Below are positions 6,600-55,807 of a stretch of 64,000 bases of DNA, in pieces. The DNA comes from Lobulomyces angularis (taxonomy: Eukaryota; Chytridiomycota; Chytridiomycetes; Lobulomycetales; Lobulomycetaceae), in NCBI GenBank assembly GCA_027604685.1, contig JADHYX010000005.1, positions 1-64,000 of the forward strand, given 5' to 3'. The notes below the pieces were generated by a model. That model made no database searches and was not told where the DNA came from. It saw only the letters and a list, made by a program, of their open reading frames with translations. A program made the position numbers and the translations under genes. Position 1 is the first letter of the stretch, and every line of letters starts with the position of its first letter.

Positions 6600-7724
6600 A
6601 TGAAAGCAACTAACCCTACTTCACAAAGTAAGACTTTAAAAAGAGGTTCCATCTCTTCGAAAGCTTGCCAAAGGTGTAGGTAAAAAAAATTATTATTTTT
6701 TTTTTGTTTAGTGGGGACTTCTTTTTAATTCTTTCTGTAAATTTTTTAGATTAAAAAAAATTAAATGTGACAGTGTTAGTGAATTAAATTGCTCAAGATG
6801 TTTGAAGGATTCTGTGAATTGCGTTTATTCCACTGAAAAGCGTAAGAGAGGTCCTGCCGTTAAAAATCCAATTATTTCAAACACTAAAACTAATGTTGTA
6901 AGTGTTGACGATTTAAACTCTCTCAATAAAGGAACTTCAATAAAACAAGAAGAAGGAAATAAGAAAAGTTTTAATACCAATTTGAATGGTCAACCCACTC
7001 ACTTCAACCTGCCTTCCTTTTCTTCCCTTTTTTCTACTTCTGATCCTCAATCCGCCAAATCTGATCCTTCTGCTAAAGATGATATACTTTTTAATGATAA
7101 TACCAATTCTCTTTTAAATAATAATAATCAATCCCCTAGGCAAACAAATCTTCAGCTGGATCGTACCAAACTGCACTCTATCCAAGAATACTATTATTCA
7201 AATGCTTCTGAGGTCTCCAATGGAAAAGAAAATGATGGTAGCAACTATTCCTATCTTTCGGTATTTAAAGAGTCCTCTCCGGTGAGCTCAACTACTTCCT
7301 TACCACCTTCTCCAACTCCAATTCCAAAGCACATCTCTAATACCCATTATGTTTTTAATTTAAAGACCAAAATTACAAATTTTACTGATTGTATAGATGA
7401 AAGTAAACCAAATATAGTATCAAAAGTTTCAACAACAACCTTCAGAAAAGCTTGTCAAAATTGCAGGATAAAAAAAAGAAAGTGTGATGGTAAAATAGGT
7501 GTTTCCTGTTCAAGGTGTTTGAACGAAAGTAATGAATGTATTTATTTTCAATCTACTAGAAAGCGTGGTATGATGCATTTTTTTTTCCCTTATTTTTTAT
7601 CTTTCTTTTTTTTTTTTCCTTGTAATTAGCTTCAAAACTTAATGAAAAAAATATTATGGAATTTAAAAATTGCATTTTACCTCAACATAACCGTTTATCC
7701 ATCTCTTACCTGACTTCTTCCTAA
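6600..7724 (+). CDS. Transcription factor with two Zn2Cys6 domains
   Basis: Putative nuclear DNA-binding regulator. Exons 6600-6679, 6750-7567 and 7630-7724 make 330 codons in frame. The first zinc cluster begins in exon 1 (KACQRCR) and continues in exon 2 (LKKIKCDS...CSRCLKDSVNCVY). A second complete cluster lies near the C-terminus within exon 2 (KACQNCRIKKRKCDG...CSRCLNESNECIYF). The ~190 residues between them are Asn/Ser/Pro-rich and probably disordered. The C-terminal exon adds only ~31 residues, so the usual middle-homology domain is missing. Exon 1 length and the intron after C-x2-C-R match the gene at 221. Two clusters in one fungal chain is rare. Domain recognition is strong, function unknown. 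Confidence 0.85.
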
Positions 7725-21700: not shown

Positions 21701-24010
21701 TGAATTCCTAAATAGATATTGTAAATTTGAAAATTAAACATTAAATTATAATTACGATTCAGTTCCTTTTTTCGTTCAACATCCCAAAAAACTAAACTGC
21801 CGTCATAAGAGCCTGTCATTAAAAGCGATGGAACGGTAGGATGACAAGCAAGAATGTAAACTTCATTGGTGTGTCCTTTTAATGACGCCAATAAGTTTCC
21901 ATTATATGAATCCCACACCTTAAGAAGTTATTAAAAAAGTAATTTTTGTGATCAAATACATGGAAATAAAAATCAGAAGTACTACTAAACACTTTTTTGT
22001 CATCTTGAGACCATTCAATGGAATCAATTAAAGTCTTATGAATTCCGGTCTCAGGGGGAAGTTGGGTGGCCGGGATCCCACTATTTAAGTTTGGTTGCAA
22101 ATTAGTTTCCTCAGCGTTACTATCATTTATTGCTTCCATAACGCTCTTAACGTCAACTACATTTTATAGTTAAAAGCTGCAAATATTAAAAAAATATAAT
22201 ATTACGCAAAATAGACAACCACGTCTTGGACTTTATGTCAAATTTCCATATTTTTGCTATCCCATCTCTACTTGAGGCCAAAATACGGTCACCATTGTTA
22301 CTAAACAATACCTCAAGAACGCTAACTTCATGCTTTAAATTTATCAACAGCTTTGGTGCCCTTGCATCTAACTCGTCATCCCTGTCAAAATACGACTTCA
22401 TTAATTTTAAACTGTTTACAGAATCATTCTGATTGTTTTCGATACTATTACTAGACGTTAATCTTTCAAAAAGAAAAGATTTGTTGGGCGAGGAGAACTC
22501 GGGTATAGGAAATGCAAAAACATAAACAAAACCATCATCTCTTCCCACTGCATATTTTGAACCGGTTGGATTAAAACTAGATGACCTAATTCTGAAGGGT
22601 TCTTTCGAGAGTTTTTTTTCAAAAGGCTTAAAACAAAGTAAAGTAAAATAGCGGTACTCATTGGAAAATTTTTACCGTGGTAGGAAACTTTTTTGTTCGC
22701 AGATTGTATTCGTAAAATTTTGATTGTCCATCTGCACAATTAACAACCAACCAAAGGTTCTTTTTTGTAAACGTAGGAGAAAATTTTATATCATTTATTT
22801 CACGATTCTAAATAAATTTTGTTTTCTTAGCAGCACAAATATTTTTTTTACCAAACATAATACAGAGACAGGTTCATATGTCTGAAAATCCCAAACTCTG
22901 ACGGTCATATCTGAATGGGCAGAAGCTAACAATGTATTATCTCCATTTATATCCAAGTCTACAACAACTAACAAATAATTCTATTTTAAAATTTTTTTAT
23001 TTAAAATAAAGAGTAAATTGAAAAATTTAAAAATTTTTTACTTGATGCGTTCCTGTATCCTGAATTCCTCTTATAGTTCTCAACAACCAACCGGATTTAG
23101 AACACCAAATTTTTATTAAATTGTCATCTCCTCCCTAAAGTACAATTTTATTAAGTACAAAAAAATTTAGATGAAAAAACATTACTGTTACGAACTTAGA
23201 CCCTATTTTATCAAAGGTACAACAATAGACTGCGTTGGTATGACCTAAATTTTAAATGAAAGAGAAAAAATTTTTTAACGTTTCTAAGTAAACAAAATTA
23301 CAAAACCTCTCATTGACGCTAATTTTTTGTATTTTGCATTTATGCTGGTTATATTTGTAAATTGATTTGAAGGCACTCCTAGCTTTTTTGATCTCAAATT
23401 TAAAACTAAAAAAATTTTTAATAAATATCCAAATTCCAAGTTACCAAAATTATTGATATCATTGGAATTTTTTATATTGCCTCTAAATCGATTTAACGGG
23501 GAATATTTTTGTGGCGAAATTTTAGCAGCAGAAATTAAACTTTGATTAAGTTTCAAATCGGAATTAATATATTCTCTTAATATGCATTCTAACAAGTTAT
23601 TTTTGATATGAGGTAACTTTTTCACCTAAAAAAAAAAGGTAAAGTAAAAAATTAAAAAAAAAAAAAAAGTTTAAAAATAAAATTAATTAAATTTTTATAC
23701 AATATTTTCAAGTAATTGATTGTGTGGCTTTCCATTAAAATCTATTCTTGGTGGTAATAAATTGAAGTTATTGTTTTGTAAAAAATTAATTTCTTCTAAG
23801 ATTGTTTTTGAGGTCTTCGTTAATTTTGAATTTTTTAAATATAACGTAATCAAAAGTAAGATTTCTATTAAATTTTATAAATATTATTAAGGAAAAATTT
23901 TGATATTTACCTTGATTTAAGTCATCCATTTTTTTTAAACATGATTTGGTGTTACATAAAATTGAAGCTGTAAGTTGTGAAGTAAGATTGTCTTCATCGT
24001 CTTTCTGCAT
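18789..24010 (-). CDS. BRWD/PHIP-family WD40-repeat and bromodomain chromatin protein
   Basis: Large nuclear protein of about 1,400 residues that likely reads modified histones. Read from ATG at 24010 down to TAA at 18789 with short introns. Order: helical N-terminus, a WD40 propeller (LGHTNAVYC-like unit near 23250, VRVWDF, NNGDRILASSRDGIAKIW at ~22260, VWDSYNGNLLASLKGHTNEV at ~21880, FSPDGTQVIVSDHNGDVHLLG at ~21600), a long acidic/basic linker, then the region aligned with the PHIP cryptic Tudor segment (LPQIGDTLVYIKTGH at ~20550; WESVSVKW...SPWEVVV at ~19950). A bromodomain follows (FPFKAAVNYQDFPEYLQLIS, YPVDFGLVKRRL, then NDVEMMRINAMFYN at ~19530). The C-tail is Lys/Asp/Glu-rich. Animal members carry two bromodomains; I find one. 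Family assignment is firm. Confidence 0.92.
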
Positions 24011-26392: not shown

Positions 26393-26886
26393 GTGAAGGT
26401 GAATTGGACACACCTTTGGCAAAAATGCAATGAGCTTTGTGATGAATTTGAAAACATTGAAACTTTTGTTACCTATTGTCCTGTGAATACACCTGCGATT
26501 TTAAATGATAAAGATTTGAAAATTAATAAACAAGAAAAATTTAAAATAGAAAAACGGAAATTCAAACAACAAGTTCAAGTGGTTGATATTATTTAATGAA
26601 AAAAAAATTTATCATATTTTTTATTTTTTTAGAATTTAATTTTAAGTGAAGACAAAATTGGTGTAATAAAAAAAAACACAAGCGATGAGGGAGATGTTTA
26701 CTTTGTAACACCAATATTTTCTAATGCAACTTTATTAAATGTGAACATAAATCAAATGGACAATATTTGGTGTTGAACTCAGTTTTATGTTGTCAAAGTG
26801 TCATGATGAAGAATGTGAAGATAAAAAAATTCAAATTATAAAATCTATCAATTACCGCTCCGTAAACTATTGTAAAACTTCACAAA
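26393..26886 (+). pseudogene. Broken or incompletely modelled coding fragment, very weakly NSE4-like
   Basis: Open plus frame from GTG at 26393 (VNWTHLWQKCNELCDEFENI...), an intron at about 26592-26631, then NLILSEDKIGVIKK...YFVTPIFSNATLL and MDNIW before a TGA at about 26776. One base out of frame the coding character resumes (VELSFMLSKCHDEECEDKK). No ATG start could be spliced on. The layout (FV-x-P-x-F, then DNI, then SF) is faintly reminiscent of the NSE4 C-terminal domain, but I would not assign it. Its 3' end overlaps the outer end of the Fanzor-like inverted repeat, so insertion of that element may have broken it. Confidence 0.3.
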
Positions 26887-26962
26887 TTTAATAAAACTTT
26901 AATTTTAAAAAAAAAACTAAAGAAGAAAAAGCTAACAAGAGTTAAGTTAATCCACAGTTATA
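26842..26962 (-). repeat. Shared 3' tail of left copy: candidate omega-RNA/right end
   Basis: Downstream of the left copy stop, about 120 non-coding bases match the tail of the right copy (for example AACTGTGGATTAA, AGCTTT...TCTTCTTTA, AAAGTTTTATTAAA and AATAGTTTA). Conservation past the stop codon argues that the mobile unit extended beyond the ORF. In TnpB/Fanzor elements this is where the guide RNA scaffold and right end lie, so an omega-RNA relic is a reasonable inference. Confidence 0.4.
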
Positions 26963-27840
26963 TTAATTCTTTAGCCGCCATTGAGCGCAGACGATGTTTT
27001 TCCTAGTTGTTTTATTTTTCCATCTCAACAAAAAGTTATTTAAAATTAAACCTTTCATTAAAATGCATTTTGCCGCGTCTTCATCTCTTCGAACCGTTTT
27101 GTTACATTGGCTACAAAAATAGTTTGAAATTTTTGGATCATTTAGCTTCCACAAGTTGAACAGGTTTTGTTGTGTATGCTTCATTTACTAAAAAAACTTT
27201 ATTTCCTAAACACTTAGCTTTATGAAGTAGGCGATCTTTAAATTGATTAAAACTTAACATTTGAAAATCTTTCTTTAATGTTTTATTCTATGAAATTTGA
27301 ATCGTGGCTTTTGATATCTCCATTAAATATTACATACTTTTTTTATTAGATCATTAATAACATCGTAGTGAAGTTGTTTGACTATATTTTTGATTTTGGT
27401 TCCCTTTTAATTAAATATTTTTTTCTAAGTGGTTTTTTTTTTCTGTTCTTTTTTAAAATCCAGATTTTTTTTAGCAGTTCAATTTCATATCGAATTATTC
27501 TTAATTTTTTTTGCTCTTGGGTGTAGTTAGTAAATTCTGAGTTTGAGCAAACCGTTAATAATTTCTTAATCCAGGGTCAACTCTACAGTAAGTCTCATGT
27601 TTTATGTTTGCTGAAGGTTCTACTTAAAATGGTATTATCAAAAATATCTAGTTCCTTCCTTACTTCATTTACAATCACTTGTTACTTTAAATCTTGGCAT
27701 TTTTTACCTCACCTTCCACATTTTATTTTTTTATTTTTTTTTTTAAATTGTTTAGGATAAATTTGTAAAAAAGTTTTTTGGTGGTTGATAGCATGTTTAG
27801 GAATATCAATTACTTGATTCAACACAGTTTTTTTCTTCAA
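26963..27840 (-). pseudogene. Left Fanzor-like copy (C4 zinc ribbon + RuvC), frameshifted
   Basis: Minus strand. From the N-terminal side: fragments VIDIPKHAINHQKTFLQIYP at ~27780; RuvC-I YCRVDPGL with GAC at 27574-27576; a Lys/Glu-rich region (LRIIRYEIELLKK); NGDIKSHD at ~27310; LSFNQFKDRLLHKAKCLGNK at ~27230; VNEAYTT at ~27175; then KLNDPKI, FCSQCNKTVRRDEDAAKCIL at ~27055-27120, and a stop at 26963. Compared with the right copy it has lost one A in the run before the first CxxC and one A just after it, and has stops near the RuvC-I motif. It cannot encode an intact protein as written. Confidence 0.65.
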
Positions 27841-27841
27841 C

Positions 27842-28452
27842 AACAATAAACATGAAAGCTATTGTGGAGTTGACCGTGGTTTAAAGAGATTTTTTAATAG
27901 TTTGTTCAAATTCCGATTTTACTTACTACACAAGATCAAAAAAAAAAATTAAGAAGATTTGAAAGAAAATTGAATTACTAAAAAAAAACTAGAATTTTAA
28001 AAAAATAGAGAAAAAAAAAGCTTTGCAAAAAGTATTTGATTAAAAGAGAAACCAAAATCAAAAATATAGTCAAAAAACTTCACTATGATGTTATTAATGA
28101 TTTATTAAAAAAAAATGATGTAGTATTTTATGGAGATATCAAAAGAAACGATATCATTCAAATATCCTACATTAAAACGTTAAAGAAAGACTTTCAACTG
28201 CTAAGTTTTAATCAATTTAAAGATCGCCTACTTCATAAAGCTAAGTGTTTAGGAAATAAAGTTTTTTTTAGTAAATGAAGCATACACAACAAAAACCTGT
28301 TCAACTTGTGGAAAGCTAAATGGCCCAAAATTTCAAAGAACTATTTTTGTAGCCAATGTAACAAAACGGTTCGAAGAGATGAAGACGCGGCAAAATGCAT
28401 TTTAATGAAAAGTTTAATTTTAAATAAACTTTTTGTTGAAGTGGAAAATTAA
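27842..28452 (+). pseudogene. Right Fanzor-like copy (RuvC + C4 zinc ribbon), frameshifted
   Basis: Plus strand, truncated at the N-terminal side. SYCGVDRGLKRFF gives RuvC-I with Asp codon 27872-27874. LIKRETKIKNIVKKLHYDVI runs from 28037, DVVFYGDIKRND at ~28110-28155 is in the RuvC-II position, then LLSFNQFKDRLLHKAK. The T-run at 28262-28269 has 8 T where the left copy has 7, which shifts the frame just before VNEAYTTKTCSTCGKLN (28270-28320). FCSQCNKTVRRDEDAAKCIL (28344-28403) and a stop near 28450 follow. The distance from the RuvC-I Asp to the TT pair is about 138 codons. The published Fanzor pattern D-x(125-275)-[TS][TS]-x2-C4-x-RD fits. Confidence 0.68.
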
Positions 28453-28610
28453 AAGAAAAAACACCCTCTGCGCTCAATGCCGGTTAAAAAACATTATACA
28501 ACTGTGGATTAATTTAACTCTTTTTAGCTTTGTCTTCTTTAATTTTATTTTAAGTTAAAGTTTTATTAAAATTTGTAAAGTTGTCTAATAGTTTATTGAG
28601 TGGTGTAAAG
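28453..28610 (+). repeat. Shared 3' tail of right copy: candidate omega-RNA/right end
   Basis: Mirror-image partner of the tail at 26842-26962, ending around TAATAGTTTATTGAG at ~28587-28602. Its outer boundary is fuzzy because similarity fades rather than stopping at a clear terminal repeat. It sits directly upstream of FANCD2 and therefore overlaps that gene's presumptive promoter. Confidence 0.4.
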
Positions 28611-28673
28611 TCTTTAAACATTTTTTAACACTTTTTCTTCTAAAACCCTTGTACTGAAAAAATTTTTGATAAA

Positions 28674-31600
28674 ATGAATGAAGGTAAAAAGCATCCTTGA
28701 TGGTTATTTCTATGCTGTTGTGCAATTAACATATTTTATTTTTGCCAAGATTATTCCATAGAAGTTCAAAACCTTAGAAATGAAACTAACAAGGTAATAA
28801 TTCAAATCAACGACAAATTAAGAGATGGTAAGACCTTTTTCACTTTAGAGCAACTTAAACTGTTTTTGAATATTAGAGCCAGATGTTAAGGACTTAATGG
28901 AGCTGCTCGTAATTACCATTTTAAATTATCATGATTCGAATTCGGTTCATTCTGCATTGGAAAATTTGTCATTTTCCATTCAACCACTGCATCACGAATT
29001 GTTGTTTAAGATCCTTTACCAAAACTTGACTTCTTCTTATATTATTCCGTTTTTAAATGTATTTGCCAGTTTACATATCAGTAACGAAAACTTGGACGAC
29101 ATTCATAATCATGTTTTAAACATATTAAGCTCAGCTGAGTTAAATCAACTAGTGATAAAAATCTTTTAATTTTTTTTATTTAATTCGTGTCTCATTTATA
29201 GCCGATAATGATACGATTTCTTTTGCAAACAATTGATTCTTCAAAAAGTAGAAGAATTTTGATAAAATTTAGGAAAAATTTGGACTTTGAAAATATATAC
29301 CGCACTTCCTCAGGCGACCAAACCACACTCTACCCTGAAACTCTTATAATAGGTTCGCAAATTTAATATCCATTTTTTATTATTTTTTAATTTTTGAAAT
29401 CCAGAATCGTTAAAAATGAGTATTAGGTTTCAAAAATTTATCATACAAGATTTACTCTCAATTATTCAAGAAGTTAAGAATCAGGTATGAATTATATACA
29501 TATATATATTTTTTAATTGATTTTATTATTTTATTTTATTTTTTTAATATTCTTAAAATTAGAATGAATTTCTTCAATTCGATATCATAACACTAATATT
29601 AATCACTTCCATTTCCCCTGCGAACAGAAGGAAATCTCTTAATTTATTACAGGAACTTCTTATAAGAAATCTAATATCTGTTGAATTGCTATTAGACACC
29701 CTTAGACAACATACTAAAGGTCTAAGAGAATATATTAAGGATATTTTGAGCATAGGGGACGAGTTTTTAAGAAATTCTTACAATAGCGGTGATAACTTGG
29801 CAGAAACTTTTAAAGGTATCGTTTAAATTTAGAATTTTTTACATAACATTAAACCAATTACAAATTAAAAATTATTATAATATTAATATTTCCATTTTTT
29901 TTGTAGGTATAAATGAAGTCATATTTAATGATGGTGACACTTGGCATAAGCAAGAAATTATTGGAAACCTGGTGACACATATTGGATCCGGAATTGAAAA
30001 CGAAATTGGTTTTTTCTTAACCGATAATTTTAATTGTTAAAAATTTTTTACACACAGACGTTGCCCTTGATGTACTGCACACACTGTCGATTTCAAATCC
30101 CGAAGGAGTCAACCTTTTTATTGTCTTTATTAAAAACATTCTTGACTGTAAGGCTAATTCCAATTTTTTCTTAACTCTTTAACAAATTTGTTTAAAGATC
30201 TTGATAATCTTAGTATGCTCCGAATTAAAAGCTTATTTGATATTTTTAGCATTCTTGCAGTTAAGGTAACTTCAAAAAAAAATCAACAATATTTATATTC
30301 TTAGACAAACTCCACCTCTTCGACTTCAGAGTCCTTAATTTCTGAGTTAACTATTTTTATAAGAAAGCAGCTAACAAGTCATAATGAAAAATATAAACGA
30401 ATTGGCGTAGTAGCTGCATTATCTATGATACAGCGCCTAGGGGCAGTTTTGGAAAGCAGAACCGAAATAATCAATCAAAGTGTAGAAATGTTAGAAATGA
30501 TTTTAAGGTACTGCAAACAAAGCGCAGTAAGAAAAAGAGAAATTTTATCCTTATTTAAAAATAAATCAGGTTTGCTTATCATTAACTTTCGATGAGTTAT
30601 CGTTTTTGTTAACAAACAAAAAACTCCATACCTCAATTGTTACGTTTGTTCAAGAACATATATCGAGTAAATTTATAGAATGTTTTATAATTACTTCAGA
30701 TGAATACTTAAAATTATTGGAATTTCAAGATTTATCAAGAATGAGATCAACACAAGAAAAGTCAAGCTCTAGTCAAAGCTGGCTTCCAAATAGCTATTTA
30801 AAAATTGAGAAATGGATGCGCTTAAACGAAGAGTGTAGTGATGAAGTCGATAATTCAGTAAATATTTTTCCGCTGGTTACAAACGCTTTCTCTAATTCAA
30901 CTCATGGAATTTATGAAATTGGTTCAACTTCCTCTTCAGCCTCAAATAATAATGTTATTACTTGGTTTAACAATGCTCATTTTGTTTCGTTGCTTCCCTC
31001 CATTTTTCGATTGTACCAAACCTTACAAAAACATGACAATGACGATTTAGAAGATATTGATTCTATTTTAGGAGCTTCAGTCGTTATGTTTAAAAACCTA
31101 GATTTAAGTGTAATTTTTAAAATTGAAAATATTTTATTTTCAATTTTGTAGACCTTAAAAGCTACTAATGGAAAGGAAATCAAAGAGAGTATGTGTTCAG
31201 CGTTATTTATTGCTATTAATTGGTTTCGGGAGTTAATTAACGCTTTTTGCTATGATTTGAAAAACGAAGATTTTGTACGAAAAATTATGCAAAGATTGAG
31301 AAACATTATTATTTTGGAGAAGCAGTTAATTGAATTGGCAGAATCAATGCATCGATGGATCCCAATCGGCCTAACTGAAGATGACTTAAGTGCGCTGAAG
31401 CTGGGAGGTAGCACTGCCAAACTTGTTCAGCATCCTTCAGAAAAAGATGATATTGATGAAGAACCTTTAAACGAAGTATCGAACATGTCAAATAAAAATA
31501 AAACGGTGAGACTCATGTTAATTAACATTTTTATGAAGTATTTCATAGAATCATAGAAACGCCAAAAGCAATGGATTATTAGGGAACAACGAAAAAAAAA

Positions 31601-33954
31601 AAAAATTTAAAGGTAAAGCCAAAATTTCAACTGAAATTGGAAGATTTAGTTCAGTGGGTGAACTAAGAAGTATCTTTCGAGAATTTGAGGTACTTTTAAA
31701 TATGTTTTATACTAATACAAATGCATTTGTTTCTTTTAGGTAAACTTATTTCTGTTGTTAGAACTGGACATTGTCGATGAAGAAAATGAAAGTGAAAATT
31801 TTGAAAAACTGGAAGTAATAGGAAAGATTCAAAAATTTAAATTAATTTTTTTTTTTTTCCAATTCAGTTTTCGACGTTAAAATACCTATTAGAAGATTTA
31901 CATCTGAAGATTGTAGAAAAATTTTCACTTACGAAGAAAAATCACAAAACATCAAACTCACTTTCTGGGTCAGGCTTTTATTCGCTAAACAGAATTAGTA
32001 CTGCAGTTTTTATAGAGAAAGTGATTATTTTAATACCATCAATGTGTAAAATTTTTGAAAAATTGTTTAATCAACTCTCTGATCTGGTAATTAATTCTTT
32101 AAATTTTCATTACTTATACTGTAGTCAGCGGATGTGACGAACAAAAAATTGCGAAAAGAATGTTTTGAATTATTACTCAAATGTTTCGAAGTTATGCTCA
32201 ATTGGAACGGCTTCAAAATGGAAGCGAGGCATCAATTAAATTTGAAGGCTACATTGCAGATATTTTCTAACAGATACATTATGAAGAAAAAGCGTAATAA
32301 TGGAGACAATAATGAAGCTGATGACACGGGGGACGACCAAAAGCAAGAAACGAGGACTGAAGATCAAATTTTAAATTCATTTCACTATTTTAGTATGTTT
32401 ATTGTAAAAAAGCAAAATGACATGGAAGAGACCTTGAATTTGGCTAATAACTTAATACTATTAAGATTAATGGATACCATCACAACTTTTTTTGACCCAC
32501 ACTTTATAACTTTAAAAAATTTTACTAGCGACGACGTAATCGAAGATATCGAAGAAATTAGAAAACTTTATTATATGAAAAGTAAGTTGAGGTTATGTGC
32601 TGAAGCATTTTTAAAGCAGAACTGGGAAGACAAAAAAAAGGTTTATTATAGAAAATAATCAATTATTAACAATTTCAGAGTGACCAATTGTCTTATCTTC
32701 TTCAAAAATTTATTGGTAATATACCAGAAGATGAAAAAAAGTTGGACATGATAAGATATCATGTTAATACTGTTTTAAAGTCTTATGCTGTTGGAAATGA
32801 GGAGGTTTTGAGAAAAAATCCATTTTTATTTAAGGACAATTTTGCTGTATATTACAAGGTAGGCTTTAAATCATTTAATTTTTTTTTTTTTTTTTATAAA
32901 TTCCACATTTAGATACTTTTTGTTGAGTTAAACAATGTTTCCGTAAATTTAAAAGTGGAGGAAAACAATGAAAACCACTTGGAATTAATGGAGCAAATTG
33001 TAAAGACATTTGTGAATCTAATTGATTTGATAAAAATCCAGTCTGTGAATAAATTAATACTCAATGTAGCATTAAAAAAGGGAAAAAGTTTTATTGACAT
33101 TTTTTTAAAAGTTTTATTTCCAATTTTAAAGAAAAACTTCAAACATTTTAAGGACAAATCTACTACCGTTTTAAAAGCTTGTCAAATTGGTAAAGTGCTT
33201 TAATTTTTATTTACGCAAATTTATTTTATACTTTTTTTTTTAGGTACCAGAATATTGCAAACTGCCTGTAATGAATCTAAAGTCGCAAGAGACACTAATC
33301 TATTATCAAGTGTTCCAGGATTAAAAAAATCACTGGAAATGCTTTTATATCAAGTAAAAATAATGTTGGCAGATCAAGGTTTTTCCTCTGCTTGGTTCAT
33401 GGGTAAAAACTTAATCAAATACATTGGAAAATAGTAACAACATATATTTAAGGAAATTTGAAACACAAAAATCTAGCAGGAGAAGCGATATCTTCACAAA
33501 TTCCGAACGAAAGCGAGGAAAGCGAAGACAGTAATGACGGTAGTCAAAGTGATGATGGTGTCAATGATGCATATCAAAATAGAGAAAACTCAGATGTTCA
33601 ATCAAGGACAGAAAAAGAGATCGAGGAAGATGCAGAGGAAGTGGAACATGAAGAAAATGTATAGAAAATACTTTTGTAAAGAAGAAATAATTCTTTTTTT
33701 TTTTTTCGAAGTTGCCAAAAAAGAGAAAAATTAGCACATCAGCCAAATCAAAGGAAAGAGATATACATTCACCGAACAAGGCACAGTTAGGATATAGTAG
33801 TTCTGGTAGAAAATTATCCAATTCACAAATCAACTCCAGTGATGATGACGAAGTAAATAACAATAAACAAATTGTAAATGATTCAAGTGACAGTAAAGAA
33901 GATAACAATATAAGTGTTAGTATGGATGTTTGCGAATCTGATATTGAACTTTAA
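28674..33954 (+). CDS. FANCD2: FANCD2 homologue (Fanconi anaemia DNA-crosslink repair)
   Basis: Nuclear clamp protein of interstrand-crosslink repair, normally monoubiquitinated with FANCI. About 1,300 residues over some 20 exons. The 10-nt first exon is 28674-28683; the next are 28750-28827, 28877-29151, 29202-29352 and 29405-29484. Diagnostic blocks: DTWHKQEIIGNLVTHIGSG (~29950), ALDVL...NPEGV...ILDYLDNLS (~30060-30220), NEKYKRIGVVAALSM (~30385-30430) aligned with the human ubiquitin-acceptor Lys561 neighbourhood (KYK-LIG), then MCSALFIAINWFRELINAFC (~31191-31250), LAEAFLKQ-like CAEAFLKQNW (~32600) and WFMGNLKHKNL (~33394-33470). The acidic tail contains a basic NLS, PKKRK. An in-frame TAA precedes the ATG, so this start is fixed, yet about 190 N-terminal residues of the human protein have no counterpart. 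Family call is firm. Confidence 0.93.
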
Positions 33955-40001: not shown

Positions 40002-43000
40002 ATGAAAAAATATACAATACTATTATGTGTTTTTTTGATTTCAATAAAATTTATTAAATTAACTGCTTCAAAAAATATTTTAAAATTAAAAAATAAATTT
40101 ATTATAGAAACTAAGTTCGCAATAGATGGGCATCATTCAAGTAAAACAGAAAAAAAAATTGAAAGAACAAATACAAAAAATTTTAAAAAAATTTTAAAAT
40201 CGAATGGTTTTAAAATTCTAAGCGAAACTGACTTTGATTTAAATACTAAAAATGATAACCAAGAAAATAAAAATATTGATAATACAAATATGGTGACTTC
40301 CACTTTTTTTACCATTGAGTATGGGCAAAAAATTGACATAACAGGTCATCCATCAGAAGATGATGATATAGTTGATGCACATAACATTCTTTTATCCATG
40401 GAGGAAATTACAGAAGTCTATCCTATGGTACACAAAGGGATTAAAATTAATTTTACTTCCTAACTCACTTTTTTGTGCAGATGGAATATGGTGTACCAAA
40501 AACTGTAAAATCCAAAAACAATAGAGTCAGAAAGCATCATAAAGACAATAGGTTGGATGAAAGAGACACCACCTCAATAACGGAAAAGCATTTTGGAATT
40601 GATAAATTAAAATCTTTGGGTTACTTTGGCACTGGATATAAAGTAGGAATTATTGACACAGGTGTTGATTATACACATCCCGCTTTAGGTGGCGGGTTTG
40701 GTCCAGGTTTTAAAGTAGGAGTAGGATATGATTTTGTCGGTGATGCATACGGAAGTTTCTCTTCTACGGCAACGCCAGATGAGGATCCAATGGATTGTGT
40801 TGGTCATGGAACTCATGTGGCAGGAATAATTGCAGCAGATACTTTTGGTCCCAATGGATTGATAGAGGGTGTTGCAAATAACGTTACAATCGGAGCTTGT
40901 AAGAAAAATTTATATGTTTTGGAAATTTTAAATATGGTTTAAACCACTTAATAAATATTAAATAAAAATTAAGATAAAATTTTTGGGTGCGACGGCTCAA
41001 CAACAAGTGATTTGATCATACAGGCACTAAAAAGAGCTTATAACGATGGTATGGATGTAATTAACTTATCAATTGCTGAGGCAGGTTGCCTAGTGGTAAC
41101 TAAATCTGAAGTTTAATTAATACATAATAATGTTTACAGGATACTGCAGTATCCAAGTTCGCTTCCTTAATTTCTGATAGAGGTGTTCAAGTTGTAGTAG
41201 CTCAAGGAAATGACGGTTTTAATGGACTGTTTACTTGCGGGTATTAAAATTACCATAATGCAGTTAATTTATAAAGTACTTTTTATAGTTCCCCAGCACT
41301 CGGAAAAAATGTTATTGCAGTGGGATCAGTGAATGGATTTGATCAAATAACTAATTATTTTACTGTAAAATATAACACAACTTCAATTGATGATATATAC
41401 AAGAGTGATGTTGAGAGAACTTTCAAATACGAAAGTTACTTGGGATTTGATGGTAATCTGAATTTAAATTTAAAACCAAGCACAAAATTTAGAAAAAATT
41501 TAACTGATGATGGATGTGCTGGATTTGGTGATGAAGAATTTTTTCTAAATACAATTGGTATAAGAAATGTAAGTAGTTATTTATTTACTTTATTTTTCAG
41601 CTCTGCTAAGAGTTCCTACAGATTGTGATATATCTGTTAGTTATTTTAATGCGATTTTATCTGGGGCAGCTGGTGTAATGTTTTATACCCAATCTGAAGT
41701 TTATGATGATAAGGCAATTGACTATTCTAATTTAAGAAAGTTCAATAATGCAACATGGTATTCAATCTCTGGATTAGACGGTTTAAAATTTAATTTTTAG
41801 TAAACATGGAAGTTAACAGTTACGTTTTATTTTTTTTTAGGAATTCATTTGTCGGAATTAGCATGCAATCAATTAAATCAAAGTGTTTTTATAGACTGGT
41901 CTGAAACAGTACTTCTTGATGGAAAAGACGCAGGGGTAATGTATGAATCGTCCTCATGGGGCCCCCGAGCAGACCTTGAAATTAAACCTGATGTATCTGC
42001 ACCCGGTATTATTAAAAATGAATTTCGTTAGAATTAAAACTATTTTTAAAAGGGGCATATATAGCAAGTACATATCCTTTATCAAAGTCATATGGGGATG
42101 GGTATGCTATTTTGACTGGAACTTCCATGGCTTCACCATTTGTTGCAGGATGTATTATTCTAGCAATGGAGTTTTTAAAAAATAATAACATTCCCTTTAC
42201 ATCTAAAGAAATTATTAATTACATTATGACTACAGCTTCACCAGTTAATTCGAAAAATAGTGGGTTGGAATCAATCTATCGTCAAGGCAGTGGATTAATT
42301 CATTTAAATAATATTTTTAATCCAAAAACCTTACTTTCGCCTTCAAAACTTAGTTTGGGTTCTGTTAACATTTTTGAAAAGGTGTTTCTAAATTTTACAA
42401 TAAAAAACGTCAAATTTGCAAAAGCAGAAAAGGATGGCTTAAATTCGTCTCAGTGTTACAAAGTATCTTTTATTGAAACAAATAATTTGGATTTGAATTT
42501 TGAAAAAATCAATACTGAAGTTGATGTAATATCAAACGCAGAACAATTGGGAACAAAAGAAAATTCAAACCTTTTTGATTTATTTAAAATAAATTGCCTG
42601 GACTTTGATTTTATTACCGACTATATTAGTATTAATTCCAATGAAGCTAAAAAAGTTGAATGCTACCTGGAATTAAAAGACAGATTATTAGAACTTCAAC
42701 AAGTTAACTTTCTGTTTGGTGGATTTATTCAGGTTTCAAATATTTTCAGTGAAGAACAACTTAGAATTCCTTTTGCTGGCTTTTTTGGGAATTTTAGTCA
42801 AATAAGTGTAATGGATTTGGTATGCATTATGATAAATCAAAAAAGGTTAATATTATTCTCTTACTAGTCCAAAGAAGCTCCATATTTGGTGGACCCCCAA
42901 AAATTCCAAAAATACAACAAATTTAGTGATATATTAAGGATAAATCCAAAAAACTTTAACTTTCCTATTTTAAATCTGTTCTTAAATATCCCTACCAAAC

Positions 43001-53033: not shown

Positions 53034-55807
53034 ATGAGTGAAAATAACACTGCTATGATAACATATAAAACTGCAAAAAAGCGCAAACAACAAGTAATTA
53101 ATACAGAACTATGCAAATACGAAATAATAGATGAAAGTTCCAACGAAGTTGGTTTAAAAGTTACTAAAACGGGAGACTTAAAGTGGTCAATATTTTGGAT
53201 AGATACAGGTGTTTCCATTGAAAGAATTCTAGAGATGGAGGTAATATGCGTTAACACTCGAATTCTAATAAAAACAATATTTAATTTTTAGCCTATCCAA
53301 AAAATAAATCACTTTCCAGGGATGCAGGAAATCTGTCGAAAAAATTATTTGGCACGTAATTTAAGTCGACTAAATAGAATGTTTCCAAAAGACTACAACT
53401 TTTTCCCTAAAACATACATTTTACGAGACTTTAAAGATTTAAGTGATTTTAAGGTAGCATCATCATCTGTAAGGTCAAATGCATTCATAGCAAAACCTGA
53501 AAGAGGCTGTCAAGGTATGGGATTTATAGATTAGAATATTTAACATCAATGTATTTTAGGAACCGGAATATTTTTATTTATGAATGTTAAAGATTTGCAA
53601 AAAAAATTAAACAATTCAAGCCAGGACAAAAGAAATGAAATTATCAAGTAAGTATTTAAATTCGATTCAATTTTTTTTTTAAAACCTTAAAATAGTTTTA
53701 ACGACATTATTGTTCAGTCTTATTTATCGAAACCTTTTCTTATTGATGGGTACAAGTTTGATCTAAGAGTTTATGTGTTGGTAACTTCGGTAGATCCACT
53801 AAGAATATTTATATATGAGGATGGTTTGGCTAGGTTTGTAAAAGAAGAGTTTAAACTACTAGAAAAACTTTAGATTTGCGACCGAGCCTTATCAACAGCC
53901 TTCAAAAAGCAACATAAATGACGTTTTTATGCATTTGACAAATTATGCAATTAATAAACATAACTCGAATTTTGATAACGACGCAGATTTTTGTAAAGGC
54001 TCAAAAAGAACAATCTCAGCAATATTGAAATTAATTGAAACTCTTGGTCATGATACAAGTAAAATTTGGAAAAGGATCTCGGATTTAATTAATAAGACAG
54101 TAATTACCATTCAACCCCAAATAAGGAAAATACTTAAAGCCTGTTTTAGAAATCCTACCGTTAATTCTGGGTTAAAAGGTAACTTTATAACTGAAAGTGG
54201 GCCAGTATTAGGAAGTCAATGTTTTGAAGTATTAGGTAAGGTTTTAGATTTTTAAATATTTTTAAGTAAACGTCTTATAGGATTTGATATATTTCTTGAT
54301 CATAAATTAAAACCTTGGCTATTAGAGGTAAACCATTCTCCAAGTTTTAGCTGCGATAGCATTTTGGATTACCAAGTAAAAAAAGAACTAATAACAGATA
54401 CTTTAAGATTGATACAGATTGATCCATTGATAATAAAAAAATTTAACAAGGATCAAAAAGATAAAACCAAGAAAAGGTTATTTAACTCTTCTAAACCGAT
54501 AAAAGTATTTGATCAGGAAAAGGAAGGAATGGCGTTTACCTCTTGTAACCCCACAGAAAAAGCTAAAACTAGTGTAAAAACTGCAGAGATTTGCATTACT
54601 GAGAGTAATGATGTGCTTTCTGCATTTCAGCATTTTGATGAAAACAGAGAAACTTCTGCACCAGGTTTAACAAATTTCGTAAAAAATTTGGTTGACAATT
54701 GTTTTACAAACAGCTGCGGAAAATACTGCCTATTTAAAAACAGAAAATTTAGGATCAGAATTTTATTTTAATGAATTTGGAATTAGTGACATGGAGATGG
54801 AAAATGATGCGTTCAGTGCATTAAACGTTATGGCTCAGCAACATGATGAAGCGTCACAGAGGCTATTAAAAGATTATCATAGTAATTATTCAAAAGTTAA
54901 ATTGGACGAGTTAACTGAATATGAAAATGGAAGATTAGGGAAGTTTCAGAGGATTTTTCCACCAGATGATGAGGGCAAATTATGTCACTATTTAAAGTTA
55001 ATAGAAACGAACGAAGCACTTTTCGGGGAAACCATTGCTAGTAAAGCAAGAAAAGATTTTATTAAAAAAAAAAATGTTATTGATATGAAAAAAACCCAGC
55101 GATTAAAAAATGAAAAATTTAAAAAAATTAAACCCAAAAAATACCGAGTTAGGGAAAATGATGCAGTTTCAAACATTTCAAATTTAAAAGATAGCCAAAA
55201 AGGAAAAGTAGCGGAAAGTTCATTAACGGTTAATATGGACAGTCAATTAAAGGACAGTACATCAAATCTTGTTGAGAAAAGAATAAATAAAAAAATTATA
55301 CCCCAGGTTAAGGCTTCCTTAAAGCTAAATGTGGAATCTGTAAATGACAGATTTATGAAAAGTCTTCTGGTAGAAAAGCAATATTCAGTGGATGAACTGA
55401 GTAGTTATGAAGAAAGAAAAAACTATTTTTTATCATCAAATAATATCGAACAAAAAAGTTTCAAATATCAAAACAAATTTAAAAAAACTAAGGAGAAAAG
55501 CTTGGAAGAAATTTTTTCACGATATATATCTAAAACATCACTTAGTAACATCGCAGGCGATTTAAGTGTAGAAAACATAAATAGCGGTACTACAGCATAT
55601 TATAAAAATGACCCACAGCAGGGATATAAAAATCACATCAACATTAAATACTCTCAGGAAAACATAAAAGTCAACGATTTACAATCAATTTTAAAAGTAG
55701 GTGGAAATTTTAGTATCAGCAAAAATGCATTGTTTCCTTCAACAATACCAAAACCGCTACTTGCATTAAAAAAAAATTGTAAAAGGCACTCAACTGAGTT
55801 TGATTGA
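53034..55807 (+). CDS. Tubulin polyglutamylase, TTLL6/4-like
   Basis: ATP-grasp ligase adding glutamates to tubulin, normally in axonemes and basal bodies. Exons 53034-53240, 53292-53514, 53560-53647, 53696-53833, 53874-54235, 54281-54664 and 54714-55807 give 831 residues in frame. TTL-domain motifs: [46 protein letters not shown] (nucleotide loop), [34 protein letters not shown], and the metal/ATP site [20 protein letters not shown] followed by EVNHSPSF. Next comes the basic microtubule-binding region and [17 protein letters not shown], typical of TTLL6. The last ~300 residues are Lys/Ser-rich and unrecognised. It complements the delta-tubulin gene as evidence for a flagellum. Confidence 0.92.

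Follow-up and report, generated by a model that had tools for sequence, protein, structure and literature searches.

Fanzors are eukaryotic relatives of the proteins from which CRISPR nucleases came. Their catalytic fingerprint has been described as a DPG in RuvC-I together with a RuvC-II glutamate six residues ahead of the zinc finger (PMC10711439, in excerpt), and their proteins as following the pattern D-x(125,275)-[TS][TS]-xx-C4 zinc finger-x(5,50)-RD (PMC3627910, in excerpt). The Fanzor1 element SPu-1 carries 33-bp inverted repeats and putative TA duplications (PMC3627910, in excerpt), whereas IS607 elements recombine at GG, without terminal inverted repeats or target-site duplication (PMC6188088 and PMC10711439, both in excerpt).

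The family reported here shares the catalytic fingerprint, fungal hosts, and many copies with the fungal Fanzor1 elements (SPu-1 and others), but the inverted repeats and TA duplications of SPu-1 were not seen in it. Its likeness to Fanzor2, the eukaryotic and giant-virus homologs of IS607-type TnpB such as L79, extends to the DPG, the alternative glutamate, the C4 zinc finger, and GG at the ends without a terminal inverted repeat in the two-ended copies found here. Unlike Fanzor2, every copy examined here is broken, the assembly yielded no TnpA, and two copies form a head-to-head pair with an identical block. We consider it likely that this pair consists of two dead, 5′-truncated copies of a TnpB-only, IS607-type Fanzor2 element that were joined at a microhomology and in which one block was later homogenized. 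It is a known kind of relic, ordinary apart from the stretch apparently copied from arm to arm. It contributes a further Fanzor2-like family, apparently extinct, whose ends are defined and whose guide-RNA scaffold is plausible, from a fungus-like genome rich in AT. The known Fanzor mechanism is left unchanged; the locus is one example of how families of this kind spread, and die out, in eukaryotes.

Results

Two inverted Fanzor arms

The window (the whole 64,000-nucleotide stretch of DNA analyzed here) is part of contig C5 in an assembly of 20,758,374 bases and 533 contigs. It is AT-rich (24 to 35% GC per 2 kb) and has a eukaryotic appearance, its genes being split into short exons. Positions 26855 to 28603 hold two inverted arms, each the frame-broken 3′ part of a Fanzor gene. 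Complementary blocks of 32 to 129 nt (71 to 100%) tile 26854 to 27608 against 27842 to 28604, and arm-to-arm alignment gave 86% identity over 752 ungapped columns. The inverted arms of ~750 bases described in an earlier sequence-only reading were thus recovered, aligning over ~750 bases where that reading had set a threshold of about 200. In a tblastn search with an intact homolog (P0001; E-values are for the 64-kb window), the right arm matched at E = 9.1e-42 (51% identity over 27904 to 28434) and matches to the left arm were spread over three frames (E = 2.3e-13, 8.8e-12, and 1.5e-11). Stops and frame changes interrupt these matches in both arms. Both arms are dead, and the earlier identification of the locus as a Fanzor relic holds. 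The main features are as follows.

26855..27841, minus strand: left copy, a decayed 3′ part (~990 bases) that is 5′-truncated at the joint (DNA matches to copies C189, C8, and C159; P0001 tblastn in three frames)
27836..28603, plus strand: right copy, a decayed 3′ part (~770 bases) that is 5′-truncated at the joint (DNA matches to family copies; P0001 tblastn, E = 9.1e-42)
27835..27841, no strand: head-to-head joint CTTCAAC (both sides aligned to copies C189, C8, C159, and C363)
26855..27020, minus strand: noncoding 3′ end of the left copy, closing ...GAGCGG (right-end alignments)
28440..28603, plus strand: noncoding 3′ end of the right copy, a putative guide-RNA scaffold (right-end consensus fold)
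6712-7629, 22186-22671, and 42022-42867: Zn(2)Cys(6) domain, WD40 repeat, and subtilase-like exon (profile matches)

The gene 3′ ends of both copies face outward, and the copies meet without a spacer. At the joint, about 6 of the 7 bases of CTTCAAC are common to both meeting element segments, a microhomology judged by eye. The right copy begins at ~27836; the left copy reaches ~27841 and includes ~227 more bases toward the gene 5′ end. Two origins had been proposed from sequence alone, a palindromic element and a duplication by inverted insertion: the pair is not a symmetric palindrome, and a simple inverted insertion, though possible, is not the favored origin.

The pair lies upstream of exons resembling FANCD2, a DNA-repair gene, which occupy plus-strand positions 28701 to 33203 directly downstream of it. 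The FANCD2 profile (PF14631) matched 31152 to 31553 with E = 2.9e-12, and three other exons matched more weakly, under the cutoff; a PDB search of these exons returned FANCD2 for one (E = 0.0022) and no match for another. Ordinary genes elsewhere in the window are marked by a WD40 repeat, a subtilase-like exon, and, at 6712 to 7629, the Pfam domain "fungal Zn(2)-Cys(6)."

Catalytic motifs and nearest relatives

The motifs of the Fanzor pattern occur in each arm in broken frames, where their spacing is inexact; all those read earlier were found again in both arms. A copy elsewhere in the genome, C78, retains T-T-K-T-C-x2-C ... C-x2-C ... GRD in an open frame. RuvC-I reads RVDPG in the left arm and GVDRG in the right; across copies, the triplet is DPG in the left arm and in C123, DRG in the right arm, and DPR in C78. 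NEAYTTK is present in both arms, C78, and C123, that of the right arm lying in a different frame from its upstream part, and both arms encode CSQCNKTVRRDEDAAK.

27570..27581, minus strand: RuvC-I V-D-P-G, left copy (sequence, P0001 tblastn)
27869..27880, plus strand: RuvC-I V-D-R-G, with the proline lost, right copy (sequence)
27310..27321, minus strand: G-D-I-K at the canonical RuvC-II place, without glutamate, left copy (P0001 tblastn, frame -2, NGDIKSHD)
28132..28143, plus strand: G-D-I-K, right copy (P0001 tblastn, FYGDIKRND)
27180..27182, minus strand: alternative catalytic glutamate codon (NEAYTTK), left copy (P0001 tblastn; alternative-glutamate rule from PMC10711439, in excerpt)
28277..28279, plus strand: alternative catalytic glutamate codon, right copy, frame shifted relative to the upstream part (sequence)
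28298..28380, plus strand: four-cysteine zinc finger and RuvC-III R-R-D, not in a single frame, right copy (sequence, P0001 tblastn)

The remark that RuvC-II reads GDIK without a clear glutamate was correct, because GDIKSH is invariant at the canonical place in 10 of 10 aligned homologs and the alternative glutamate, six residues before the zinc finger, is present. Among the C123 homologs (120 of the 206 matches listed), 115 of 120 fit the search pattern, all 115 with the glutamate, and 105 of 120 had DPG and the alternative glutamate together by pattern. Judged from these alignments, GDIK in place of the canonical RuvC-II glutamate is a trait of the family. The zinc-ribbon profile proposed earlier as a check (OrfB_Zn_ribbon, PF07282) scored 25.8 bits against the window alone, just under its cutoff of 26.3, yet the homolog match is significant; the same profile gave 54.8 and 56.3 bits against C78. 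A 143-residue piece of C78 matched the NCBIfam model guided_TnpB with E = 3.7e-17 and 62.7 bits, under the model's whole-protein cutoff of 100.

Searches of the PDB pointed to a single structure. The TnpB-like L79 was the only match to the C123 read-through (E = 1e-22), the best match to C78 (E = 7e-17; next, 8e-4), and the best match to a profile of ten homologs (E = 8.8e-44; next, 9e-17); for the window's own right-arm piece (89 residues) it ranked first at a nonsignificant E of 0.033. No chain named Fanzor was listed among the PDB matches to C123, C78, or the homolog profile. L79 (PDB 9b0l) is presumably a mimivirus gene. No mention of mimivirus or of a pseudoknot was found in the available part of PMC11423790.

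The family in the genome

A genome search with right-arm DNA hit 20 contigs, with 24 matches in all when the query is counted. The family comprises about 20 decayed copies in the same genome. At least one of seven element segments (E up to 1e-5 over at least 40% of the segment, the segments' own source copies counted) was carried by 23 of 28 stretches searched. Among these 23 copies, the 3′ end was present in 20, the zinc-finger region in 17, RuvC-I/II in 12, the middle in 10, and the N terminus, 5′ leader, and left end in 5 each. The left-end count follows removal of a sixth match, at C112, which was rejected as a stray match downstream of the C112 right end. Most copies came from 3′ queries; the left-end query added one copy (C13b) and two further weak matches, C115 and C64. 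We considered LINE-like retrotransposition, given variable 5′ ends and a common 3′ end, and disfavor it because the right end is not followed by poly(A) and because four copies lack internal parts yet keep both ends: C102, C159, C363, and C13, whose left end is partial.

The intact copy that the sequence-only reading had suggested looking for did not emerge: none of the family copies translated has an uninterrupted full-length frame. Protein matches lacking a stop numbered 3 of 28 in one genome search (the longest, in C78, 141 residues) and 2 of 9 in another. Viral contigs were searched with the alignment of ten homologs rather than the window's own copies; of the 120 matching stretches, a relative is encoded by 101, and we kept 80. 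The match with the best E-value had 30% identity to P0001 (E = 2e-43), the highest identity was 49% over 61 residues, and no close viral source was seen among the viral contigs matched in this way.

Descent of the two arms

Outside alignment columns 358 to 586, the divergence of the arms is about that of separate family copies. Those columns form a block of ~230 bases in which the arms are ~99% identical.

28202..28437, plus strand: near-identical block, right copy, a proposed gene-conversion tract (arm alignment, shuffles, site counts)
27027..27256, minus strand: near-identical block, left copy (arm alignment, shuffles, site counts)

Within limits chosen after seeing the data, the block holds 3 arm differences in 184 polymorphic sites, a result matched by 0 of 10000 shuffles. 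We compared each arm with copy C189, counting sites at which only the left arm agrees with C189, only the right arm does, or only the two arms agree. These counts were 3, 0, and 21 inside the block, 44, 19, and 30 in the first block outside it, and 14, 15, and 10 in the last. Sites at which the arms agree thus stand to sites at which one arm agrees with C189 as 21:3 inside and 40:92 outside (Fisher P = 1.7e-7 for C189; across six comparison copies, P ranged from 7e-12 to 0.0017). In trees of the middle block, the two arms come out as sisters (82/67), with C112 as their neighbor (89/67). In the last 165 columns (segment C), the right arm groups with C112 (94/91), and in the last block the left arm falls near C189, C31b, C102, and C159 with poor support (35/75).

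The simplest reading is that the arms are copies of different descent that were joined head to head and then homogenized over ~230 bases. Such copies would have been joined at a short microhomology, probably when two members of the family underwent end joining or a template switch, and the ~230-base stretch would have been homogenized later. A somewhat unlikely alternative is that the arms are sisters produced in situ by an inverted duplication, through fold-back or template switching with a loop of ~227 bases, and that the segments outside the block simply diverged. The arms do abut at a microhomology without a spacer, both are truncated at the same point, and in the first block (segment A) sister arms are compatible with an approximately unbiased (AU) test (P = 0.229). 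In the last block, however, the same test rejects them marginally (P = 0.046), and there the right arm sits with C112. Moreover, outside the near-identical block the left arm alone shares 44 + 14 sites with C189, more than the 30 + 10 shared by the arms only, and the sequences flanking the two right ends are not related as inverted copies, whereas those at locus C18 are.

Ends and type of the element

The 20 aligned right ends stop at about the same place, ...AAATTTGTAAAGTTATATTATAGTTTATTGAGCGG (poorly kept in C9 and C14), and the common 3′ end of the aligned copies reads ...TTTATTGAGCGG. GG closes the element at this boundary in 13 of the 20 copies and is missing from 7. A full left end was found in three copies on two independent flanks, and GG abuts it in both: C102 and C159, with one common host flank, read ...AAGAGG/GTTATTTT, and C363 reads ...TTAGAGG/TGTTATTTT (slashes mark junctions). 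In a 16-base scan allowing up to 4 mismatches, the left ends of these copies showed no right-end motif in inverted orientation. GG at the right end and immediately left of the left end is shared with the IS607 family, as is a terminus complementary to a hairpin loop, which recalls the loop pseudoknot of ISXfa1 (PMC10711439, in excerpt). In contrast to that family, no tnpA was found here, and a host gene fragment accompanies some copies.

Because L79 is the nearest solved structure and the ends have this form, the evidence favors Fanzor2 as the closest group. A six-frame search that is blind to introns found no match to PF00239, the profile for the IS607 TnpA serine recombinase, in the assembly; the same search was positive in 10 of 14 control genomes. 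We therefore call the family a TnpB-only relic rather than a complete IS607 element. It looks like an extinct relic of IS607 type, by its end structure only. A living element, estimated at ~2.2 kb, would encode one RNA-guided nuclease with a Fanzor active site, which would cleave unoccupied sites and so let repair restore the element, and the element's movement would need an IS607-type serine recombinase of the kind not found in the assembly.

A separate question, overlapping with the alternatives for the pair, is whether the element was a Fanzor of a DDE or Helitron-type transposon, which we regard as unlikely. The missing IS607 TnpA would suit such an element, as would one common 3′ end in 20 of 23 copies beside a left-end segment in only 5 of 23, as has been described for CRe-1, a Helitron Fanzor family (PMC3627910, in excerpt); the GG at both ends, the lack of an inverted right-end motif at the left ends of C102, C159, and C363, and L79 as best solved relative all argue for IS607 type instead.

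A candidate preinsertion site lies at C147, downstream of a gene that we take to be phosphatidylserine decarboxylase-like. Its flank reads ...AAGAGG/ACGAAGCC, and C102 and C159 match the left part up to the GG but not the right part. Their right flanks differ, which speaks against a clean insertion. The 3′ part and downstream flank of the C147 gene (the fuller copy, C147:9700-12700) recur beside the Fanzor element at three other loci: C102:52218-52748, C159, and C31b. Either the host fragment traveled with the element or the loci were rearranged.

Putative guide-RNA scaffold

RNAalifold on 16 right ends returned only a 5-pair hairpin. Its loop, CGCTCAAT, is complementary to the element's last bases, ATTGAGCG, in the consensus of these ends.

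28471-28478 facing 28595-28602, plus strand: loop CGCTCAAT and terminus ATTGAGTG, right copy (consensus word search)

This pairing came from a search of the consensus for complementary words and was noticed before being tested; with the terminus fixed and the rest of the consensus shuffled, 5 of 5000 shuffles matched or exceeded it. A proposed fuller fold of 32 pairs had 82.7% of cells pairing, against 81.8% in shuffles and 36 to 47% when slid, and its covariation score was reached by 39 of 500 shuffles, no more than relatedness could give. Rfam had no match in 26500 to 29000 at E up to 1. A loop pseudoknot has been reported for ISXfa1 and predicted for Fanzor2 (PMC10711439, in excerpt). It is plausible from these sequence comparisons that the 3′ end served as a guide-RNA scaffold and that the guide began close to the end of the terminal GG.

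Proposed exchange between the arms

The arms of human Y-chromosome palindromes are kept alike by gene conversion. The Fanzor pair likewise has a near-identical block between inverted arms amid diverged sequence, but here it is one short tract (~230 bases) in a transposon relic. We read the block as gene conversion between the arms, perhaps from right to left. If so, it suggests that dead Fanzor copies still recombine. Exchange between Fanzor copies was not found in the open-licence literature, judged by those titles and starts of abstracts that were listed.

We applied the shuffle comparison to 12 other copy pairs. Eight had no significant stretch, including C189-C363 (P = 0.53) and C78-C123 (P = 0.21). 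Significant stretches were present in left arm-C189 (P = 0.0002), right arm-C189 (P = 0.0003), left arm-C78 (P = 0.0039), and C78-C189 (P = 0.024), and part of the signal is therefore regional conservation. Such conservation is at the center of a further, quite improbable explanation, in which two already truncated copies inserted independently, came to abut, and never exchanged sequence, the block being alike only through functional conservation. The block does span the well-conserved zinc finger and RuvC-III, and both arms are significantly close to C189 there. Yet C189-C363 and C78-C123 have no such block, and within it the arms depart jointly from C189 at 21 sites and from C363 at 29, whereas they disagree with one another at 3. 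An assembly or amplification chimera that joined copies of different loci would account for the microhomology, and a collapsed repeat in a 533-contig assembly could fake an identical block; we hold this to be very improbable for a locus inside a 134-kb contig, in which a partly identical, partly diverged pair is unlike a simple collapse. Most remote is the notion that outward-facing right ends, as in the pair and at C18, are a route by which a repeat-less IS607-type element acquires palindromic, inverted-repeat ends, which, if true, would be a step toward the Fanzors of inverted-repeat transposons and would mean that the pair moved as one unit, explaining its unrelated outer flanks.

Other observations

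At C18, the right end and at least ~19 bases of host flank are present in inverted orientation upstream of the same copy (53316-53397 versus 54710-54793), which we take as a rearrangement. Two other copies share ~500 bases upstream at 89% (C123:48558-49041 and C78:36489-35984). This piece reads open on the opposite strand in C78 and represents either a segmental duplication or transported host sequence. The genome also holds a second, different, and mostly broken Fanzor-like family (C107:42505-42960, C247, and other contigs) with the motif CDEYYTSQTCPxCL; it scored 33.1 and 35.8 bits with PF07282 and gave 30 protein matches, most of them short or with stops.
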